Positions 13,411 through 14,238 of a stretch of 64,000 nucleotides of DNA are shown one piece after another. The stretch comes from Pseudoflavonifractor sp. MSJ-30 (GTDB lineage Bacteria > Bacillota > Clostridia > Oscillospirales > Oscillospiraceae), in NCBI RefSeq assembly GCF_018918045.1, contig NZ_JAHLPU010000026.1, positions 1 to 64,000 of the forward strand, given 5' to 3'. A model generated the notes under the pieces. The model saw only the letters and a list, made by a program, of their open reading frames with translations, ran no database searches and was not told the origin of the DNA. The translations under genes were made by a program, and so were the position numbers. Numbering within the stretch: the first letter of the stretch is position 1; the number at the start of each line of letters is the position of its first letter.

Positions 13411-13439
13411 ATTATAGCCTTTGCGCGCGGGAATGTCAA
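13411..13439 (-). promoter_or_regulatory. consensus promoter of the RNA methyltransferase gene
   Basis: Minus strand TTGACA (13439-13434), exactly 17 bp, TATAAT (13416-13411): a perfect sigma-A promoter, giving a leader of only about 20 nt. Confidence 0.85.
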
Positions 13440-13496: not shown

Positions 13497-13525
13497 TTGA
13501 CATATCCACCCACAGCGGCTATAAT
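13497..13525 (+). promoter_or_regulatory. consensus promoter of the His-rich/CooT genes
   Basis: TTGACA (13497-13502), 17-bp spacer, TATAAT (13520-13525): perfect sigma-A consensus, so high basal expression is expected. Confidence 0.85.
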
Positions 13526-13558
13526 AGATAAAAAAATACAGATAGGAGGATTCAAACT

Positions 13559-13993
13559 ATGCATTTGGATCACGATCATATCGGTGGCCACACCCATGAG
13601 CACACCCACGAGGACGGAACAACCCATACCCATGAACACGAGCATGTGGCTGAGCATGCCCATGAGCATCCCCATACCCACGAGCACACCCACGCCGACG
13701 GCACGACCCACACCCATGAGCACGGGCATCCCCATGACCACAGCCACGACTGCGGCCATAGCTGCGGCAGCTGCGGCACGCCCTGCGAGCACACTCCTAT
13801 GGAGGAGTTGACCGCCCTCATGAAGTACATGGTTGGCCACAACGCGGCCCATGCCAAAGAGCTGGCAGAGTTGGCCAAAAAACTGGAGGAAGCCGGCAAC
13901 CACACTGCCTATGAGCAGGTCATGGCCGCCGTTTCCGACTTTGAAAAGGGCAACATGCGCCTCAGCGTTGTGCTGAGCAGCCTTGCCGAATAA
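13559..13993 (+). CDS. histidine-rich metal-binding protein with helical C-terminus
   Basis: 144 residues. Residues 2-78 contain 27 histidines, mostly as alternating HxH, and four cysteines (65, 69, 72, 76: CGHSCGSCGTPC). Two stretches, about 11-29 and 39-57, are near copies around a DGTTH core, so the region arose by duplication. From about residue 81 an amphipathic helical domain follows (MEELTALMKYMVGHNAAHAKELAELAKKLEE). There is no signal peptide, so it should be cytoplasmic, unlike HypB or ZnuA-type His-rich proteins. The next gene, 12 nt away, encodes a CooT nickel-binding protein. A nickel or zinc store or chaperone is the natural reading (inference). RBS TAGGAGG. Confidence 0.85.
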   Translation: MHLDHDHIGGHTHEHTHEDGTTHTHEHEHVAEHAHEHPHTHEHTHADGTTHTHEHGHPHDHSHDCGHSCGSCGTPCEHTPMEELTALMKYMVGHNAAHAKELAELAKKLEEAGNHTAYEQVMAAVSDFEKGNMRLSVVLSSLAE

Positions 13994-14005
13994 GGAGGAA
14001 TTTCT

Positions 14006-14203
14006 ATGTGTCTTTCTACGGTTTACCGCAATACCGTGGCCCCGGAAGAGGTCATTATGAAAAATGTCATGACCATTGAGCAGAAAGACGGCGTCATCAT
14101 TCTGACCGACCTGATGGAGCGCCAGACCGCTGTGGAAGGGACTCTGGAAAAGGCCAATCTGGTTGACGGCTATGTAGTCATCAAAGAGACTAAGACTGCC
14201 TGA
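14006..14203 (+). CDS. cooT: CooT family nickel-binding protein
   Basis: 65 residues starting MCLSTVY, with the conserved Cys2 that binds nickel in the CooT dimer, followed by the small all-beta fold (VMTIEQKDGVIILTDLMERQTAVEGTLEKANLVDGYVVIKE). CooT helps mature Ni-CO dehydrogenase in Rhodospirillum; in clostridia the family often occurs without that operon. Here it is the second gene after the His-rich protein, preceded by AAGGAGG and followed by a terminator, so the pair forms its own two-gene metal-handling operon. Confidence 0.87.
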   Translation: MCLSTVYRNTVAPEEVIMKNVMTIEQKDGVIILTDLMERQTAVEGTLEKANLVDGYVVIKETKTA

Positions 14204-14208
14204 TTTTT

Positions 14209-14238
14209 CCCCTGCGGACAAACTCCGCAGGGGATTTT
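14209..14238 (+). terminator. terminator after cooT
   Basis: CCCCTGCGGA pairs with TCCGCAGGGG, followed by ATTTT. Confidence 0.85.

Follow-up and report, generated by a model that had tools for sequence, protein, structure and literature searches.

What does a small protein that is extremely rich in histidine do directly upstream of a CooT-type nickel protein, and which nickel enzyme would the two serve? The natural neighbour of CooT is CooJ. The locus that raises this question belongs to a gut bacterium, and lies in a stretch of 64,000 nucleotides that is called the window below.

A two-gene unit

The unit lies on the plus strand. It opens with a promoter-like sequence of the sigma-70 type (13497-13525), TTGACA and TATAAT separated by 17 nt, which matches the consensus at 12 of 12 positions. 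This is followed by an open reading frame for a His-rich HNxxH-domain protein of 144 amino acids (13559-13993), conserved upstream of cooT, and by cooT itself (65 amino acids; 14006-14203), 12 nt after the stop codon of the first gene. An AGGAGG ribosome-binding site precedes each frame (13544-13549 and 13993-13998), and a terminator-like hairpin of 11 pairs (14208-14234; -22.8 kcal/mol, z -7.35) ends the unit, with a T-run that is short and weak. The earlier note, made from the letters of the window, had described a CooT-type protein 12 nt behind a His-rich gene, a perfect consensus promoter and a terminator of the unit's own, and our results agree on all of these. The flanking genes, encoding an rRNA/tRNA methyltransferase (opposite strand), a PF06695 export-family protein and a HIT protein, are of families unrelated to the pair. 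Another 12/12 promoter-like site lies on the minus strand (13411-13439), ahead of the divergent methyltransferase gene.

The His-rich protein contains 30 His and 4 Cys in total. Its N-terminal His/Cys-rich region (residues 1-77; 13559-13789) has 26 His; the extreme content that had been reported for these 77 residues stands, while the reported count of 27 does not. The sequence DGTTHTHEH occurs twice, starting at residues 19 and 47, in line with the internal duplication described before. Cys 65, 69, 72 and 76 form the cluster CGHSCGSCGTPC. From about residue 80 to residue 144 (13796-13990), AlphaFold2 predicts a helical-hairpin domain, whose first helix carries the motif HNAAH (His94, Asn95 and His98; 13838-13852), a proposed metal site.

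Judged by its sequence, the second gene is an ordinary CooT. It matches Pfam PF10133 over its whole length (E 2e-18; 66.9 bits, with the cut-off at 27), and a profile of the window CooT and 20 other CooTs matches the solved CooT chains 6fan (E 9e-18), 5n76 and 6y8v. Cys2 is present in the window protein and is invariant in the 21 aligned CooTs. According to PMC6006190, CooT of Rhodospirillum rubrum binds one Ni per dimer with a Kd of 9 nM and with involvement of the Cys at position 2. The best-scoring CooTs of Bacillota, mostly of an MCEA type, are unpaired, whereas the window CooT begins with MCLS and is paired with the hairpin protein.

The HNxxH hairpin domain

Neither Pfam nor NCBIfam assigns the His-rich protein to a family, and its C-terminal domain is likewise uncovered. 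The same holds for 8 stand-alone relatives and for the protein at locus L052, while a relative fused to a methyltransferase matches methyltransferase families alone. Weak matches in these family searches (53-BP1 Tudor, Ezh2-like CXC, Chap-C) were taken as chance.

The conserved part of the protein comprises its last 64 residues, with matches in 56 of the 99 relatives searched, all within the window's genus. In named genomes, a profile of the domain (A1) led to 235 confirmed stretches, from which 80 loci were retained; in a sample of the phylum, it found the domain in 17 of 398 genomes. H-N-x-x-H is invariant across 87 aligned sequences, and HN..H is kept in 130 of 131 non-identical sequences. 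Members come from Bacillota, together with a Coriobacteriaceae and a Treponema record; a match at locus L160 (E 7e-4, without CooT) was treated as chance. Most of the remote members, with reading frames of about 68-110 amino acids as read, have no His-rich tail. The actual core of this His-rich protein lies in its C-terminal hairpin domain.

Based on an 87-row alignment (A3), AlphaFold2 predicts a two-helix hairpin with a mean pLDDT of 92.9. The helices span residues 11-42 and 46-74 of the piece that was modelled, and the first of them bears the motif. This replaces the four-helix-like domain proposed earlier, although two such hairpins could form a four-helix bundle by dimerisation.

Linkage with CooT

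The His-rich protein and CooT form a unit far beyond chance. Within the window's genus, CooT lies immediately downstream in 38 of the 38 loci read of the stand-alone, closest-matching class. At 12 loci of more distant paralogues in the genus, there is no CooT within stretches of about 2.7-4.2 kb. In the named genomes, a same-strand pair of domain and CooT is found at 69 of the 80 retained loci, mostly 1-31 nt apart; where the distance comes out negative, an ORF start was set too far upstream. In the phylum sample, where the search for the domain took no account of CooT, 16 of 17 loci have a pair, among them remote members that lack the His tail. The conserved linkage that had been suggested as a check in other genomes is therefore present, and the view of the two genes as a nickel-handling pair is supported.

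The partner is not universal to CooT, as the domain is found at 0 of the 30 CooT loci that score best in the phylum sample (flanks of about 1.5 kb; drawn from matches in 119 genomes). Similarly, 9 of 12 CooT-containing genomes of an order sample have the pair, and 3 have no domain beside CooT. At 9 of the 30 best-scoring loci, CooT has a neighbour with a VDGxGGG motif instead, and one such protein from another locus (L150) is assigned to DUF3842 by Pfam. Other CooTs adjoin or are fused to the VDGxGGG protein (L150:1903-2229, L002:1685-2101, L012:1072-1689), and two of these loci (L002, L012) also contain cobalt/nickel ECF-type transporter genes, as judged by eye.

Association with CODH/ACS

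The earlier note had seen no CO dehydrogenase, hydrogenase or urease genes near the unit. This holds for CO dehydrogenase/acetyl-CoA synthase (CODH/ACS), which has no gene inside the window, and for [NiFe]-hydrogenase (PF00374), for which the window's genome gave no match. The idea that the unit stands apart from nickel enzymes, by contrast, is not supported by its relatives, in which its association with CODH/ACS is both physical and phylogenetic.

In the family to which the window belongs, 19 of the 24 genomes that have the domain contain a CODH (TIGR01702 over cut-off), compared to 0 of 20 without CooT. The former comprise 17 of 21 congeners, which were selected by the domain itself and in 19 of which the pair was actually read, and 2 of 3 genomes of other genera with the pair. 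Counted per genus, CODH is present in 3 of 4 and 0 of 12, respectively (Fisher p 0.007). CODH over cut-off was not found in three other congeners, nor in the genomes G071, G265 and G286. [NiFe]-hydrogenase was dismissed as nickel recipient (0 of 21 congeners).

At the level of loci, cooS, acsB, acsC or acsD lies within at most 8 kb of 26 of the 69 paired loci and of 0 of the 11 unpaired loci (p 0.013), in neighbourhoods that are often shorter because many contigs end sooner. Gene order in several relatives places the pair inside CODH/ACS clusters. One locus (L186) reads domain-cooT-(gap)-cooS-cooC-acsB-cooC2-acsD-acsC-acsE, another (L182) reads domain-cooT-cooC2-acsB-RACo beside cooS-cooC-acsB-acsD-acsC-acsE, and two more (L183, L185) have CODH/ACS clusters with the domain gene and cooT in a similar layout. 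In this respect the pair resembles the known maturation system of CODH/ACS (CooC, CooT, CooJ). It differs in that the pair is free-standing in the window's genus, away from cooS-cooC-acsB, which is located elsewhere in the genome (L177-L180, L188). The link to a nickel enzyme was missed from the window alone because the CODH genes of this genus lie elsewhere.

The separate location of cooS-cooC-acsB is consistent with PMC11338639, which describes cooS-cooC-acsB as the conserved order with acsCDE elsewhere in most genera of Oscillospirales; of 446 Faecousia genomes, it reports 282 with CODH. Neither CooT nor CooJ is mentioned in the main text of that paper.

Relation to CooJ

A 2019 paper on CooJ reportedly found that its homologues share an H(W/F)x2Hx3H motif and a C-terminal His tail. 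The motif region of the window protein, YMVGHNAAH, retains two of the three motif His of CooJ and does not match the full motif, with Tyr90 in place of the first His and Met91 in place of the aromatic W/F. Moreover, its His-rich tail is N-terminal, whereas that of CooJ is C-terminal. Since both the side of the tail and the first motif His fail, the window protein was not filed as CooJ. Further differences are the CxxxCxxCxxxC cluster of the window protein and a sequence similarity that is barely detectable. Remote Bacillota members do have HWxxHxxxH, for example HWIEHNxSH. Among 130 sequences, a count that includes four apparently mis-anchored ones (EQ, DA, GG, TM), the motif starts with YM in 106, HW in 8 and HL in 3.

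The likenesses to CooJ of R. rubrum (PDB 6hk5; PMC6006190) are a helical domain, two His separated by three residues, a flexible His-rich tail and a gene adjoining cooT; adjacency to CODH/ACS genes is shared by relatives, not by the window. The coiled-coil core of CooJ has its counterpart in the predicted two-helix hairpin. As given in the same paper, R. rubrum CooJ binds four Ni per monomer with a Kd of 4.3 uM.

CooJ was not found in the PDB by a single-sequence search or by profile A1 (6hk5, up to E 10). Profiles A2, A3 and A4 matched CooJ chain 6hk5_B weakly, at E 0.6, 0.3 and 0.39, ranking 3 of 5, 3 of 30 and 6 of 15 amid coiled-coil and designed proteins. In the printed alignment with A2, LAHFLDHVEGH of CooJ, whose HFLDHVEGH is an instance of its motif, falls on the motif of the domain in register. 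Shuffled versions of the CooJ piece served as a control. Full shuffles reached its score in 0 of 4818 cases for A4, 1 of 4897 for A3, 1 of 4811 for A2 and 5 of 4957 for A1; shuffles that kept the heptads in 0 of 4906, 5 of 4973, 4 of 4897 and 131 of 4995, respectively; and shuffles with the motif fixed in 10 of 4984, 15 of 4973, 9 of 4985 and 36 of 4987.

Structural comparison by VIA-align gave CooJ (6hk5_E) a Z of 8.0 and an rmsd of 2.2 over all 64 residues. Unrelated helical hairpins scored equally or higher, with rubrerythrin-like hairpins at Z 9.6; the similarity to rubrerythrin and ESCRT-III was put down to a helix arrangement that is common. With a second model, CooJ was absent among the 50 VIA-align matches listed, and neither model had a Foldseek match with an E of 0.001 or less. 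Taken with the motif register and the shuffle control, distant homology of the hairpin domain to CooJ is likely, and the window protein probably works like CooJ. The earlier view that it stands apart from known nickel chaperones is therefore not supported. It also shares an extreme His content with the nickel stores Hpn and Hpn-like, from which it differs by its conserved, predicted HNxxH hairpin and by the near-constant neighbour cooT.

Other genomic contexts

Among the 80 retained loci, 11 are unpaired, five of which are fusions to a SAM methyltransferase (L065, L089, L090, L104, L107). Many congeners have a second gene in which a SAM methyltransferase, a His-rich linker and the HNxxH domain are joined in about 280-340 amino acids as read (fusion loci L044:1136-1984, L045, L046, L047, L048, L049, L050, L055 and L065:7311-8201). 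At two other loci (L138:3409-11942, L092:730-5349), the HNxxH protein is unpaired and its neighbours are SAM methyltransferases and genes for a NikA/NikB/NikC-like ABC importer. The best NCBIfam matches of these importer genes are nickel subunits, with one over cut-off (Opp2C, 308 against 300) and the rest below. At another locus without CooT (L052:1-2342), a His-rich HNxxH protein adjoins genes that look FeoA/FeoB-like by eye.

Paired genomes without CODH show a different recurring cluster. HGD-D or BadF-type genes occur, as a full or partial set, at 12 of the 69 paired loci. The cluster has a BadF-type activase, two 2-hydroxyglutaryl-CoA-dehydratase-like (HGD-D) proteins, a CooC-like ATPase in most cases and an OYE-like flavin reductase in some, and a short ACS-like protein is found in five genomes (L191:2526-10551; L118:1214-10442; L130:5552-9649 and on; L084:3610-8143; L257:6436-11201). 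Family assignments are PF03598 (ACS-like) at L191, and PF01869 (BadF-type activase) and PF06050 (HGD-D) at L118. In G071, the source of L257, the HNxxH-CooT pair is on another contig than the ACS-like cluster. The occurrence of the pair together with ACS-like, CooC-like, BadF and HGD-D genes in CODH-less genomes may point to an undescribed nickel enzyme. We tentatively suggest, as a possibility that may well prove wrong, that the HNxxH hairpin represents a nickel module of Bacillota that has gone unrecognised, a near-obligate partner of one CooT branch that would feed nickel proteins beyond CODH, including an undescribed enzyme for whose maturation CooT and this partner would supply the nickel.

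Proposed function and alternative explanations

The unit is real, conserved and nickel-related, and it is a variant on the theme of CooT and CooJ rather than a new principle. Relatives have the pair beside CODH/ACS genes, which makes a variant of a known nickel-delivery system the most likely reading. We give a probability of about 0.62 to the view that the pair stores nickel and passes it on in the manner of CooJ and CooT, with CODH/ACS as recipient. The flexible N-terminal His/Cys tail would collect several Ni(II) with micromolar affinity. The helical hairpin, probably dimeric, would hold nickel more specifically at HNxxH and dock on CooT for direct transfer, after which CooT, via Cys2, would supply the nickel when CODH and acetyl-CoA synthase are assembled with the aid of CooC. 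Counter-evidence to this reading is that CooT manages without the partner at the 30 best-scoring phylum loci and in 3 of the 12 order genomes described above.

Alternatively, the tail might be low-complexity sequence devoid of a metal role, with the hairpin alone of importance. Indeed, 29 of 130 non-identical relatives have no 30-residue window with at least 6 His, and several of these are still followed by CooT. Yet such a window is kept in the N-terminal part of the other 101 and in the C-terminal part of 0 of the 130, the extension varies between relatives but is always N-terminal, and many have Cys clusters. Moreover, nickel binding by His-rich tails is reported for CooJ and for Hpn-like proteins (PMC6006190, PMC8704837). 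We consider a tail devoid of a metal role very improbable. The resemblance to CooJ could also be a convergence, in which an unrelated hairpin gained a His-x3-His pair and His-rich tails. This would fit the CooJ matches, whose E values of 0.3-0.6 are comparable to those of designed coiled coils, the failure of profile A1 alone to separate CooJ from heptad shuffles and the higher structural scores of rubrerythrin-like hairpins. We consider it unlikely, because CooJ, known beforehand as the natural neighbour of cooT, aligns end to end with the metal motif in register and exceeds all 4906 heptad shuffles with profile A4.

Two further explanations concern the recipient. Neither CODH (TIGR01702 over cut-off) nor ACS (PF03598) was found in the search of the window's genome, nor were the cooS-cooC-acsB genes, which is a further difference from known CODH/ACS maturation. 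The unit may therefore serve a CODH/ACS missing from the assembly, serve another nickel protein, or be left over. A remnant after recent loss of CODH/ACS is possible, if doubtful. One contig (C61) carries cooC2-acsD-acsC-acsE, and acsB-RACo, present in a close relative (L250), is missing after acsE although the contig is uninterrupted (L249:6545-13712); likewise, the cooS-cooC-acsB trio has no match while its flanks map to contig interiors. L249 and L250 also differ by a local inversion. Conversely, the unit itself is intact in both reading frames and in its motif, promoter and hairpin, and genes may have been missed in an assembly that is 94.5% complete in 75 contigs and was searched rather than read whole; either loss or an assembly gap is possible for acsB and CODH. 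The pair could, instead, be a general buffer or supply of nickel (or Co/Zn) for whichever nickel protein the cell has. This role is kept in play by pairs in genomes without CODH over cut-off (G071, G265, G286), by the HGD-D/BadF-type loci, some with the CooC-like ATPase and the short ACS-like protein, and by unpaired domain proteins beside nickel-type ABC importers or near the Feo-like genes. It is nevertheless quite unlikely in view of the strong genome-level association with CODH within the family and of the pairs contained in CODH/ACS clusters of several relatives. Delivery of nickel to CODH/ACS thus remains our preferred reading.

Implications

Our literature searches found no paper describing an HNxxH partner of CooT, and none on the HGD/ACS-like cluster. 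CooJ-type nickel chaperones have been described from few bacteria. A conserved, unannotated partner of CooT across Bacillota offers a concrete protein for testing. The clusters in CODH-less genomes are flagged as the possible home of an unknown nickel enzyme. For acetogens and gut Clostridia, the HNxxH partner may account for the loading of CODH/ACS at low nickel.
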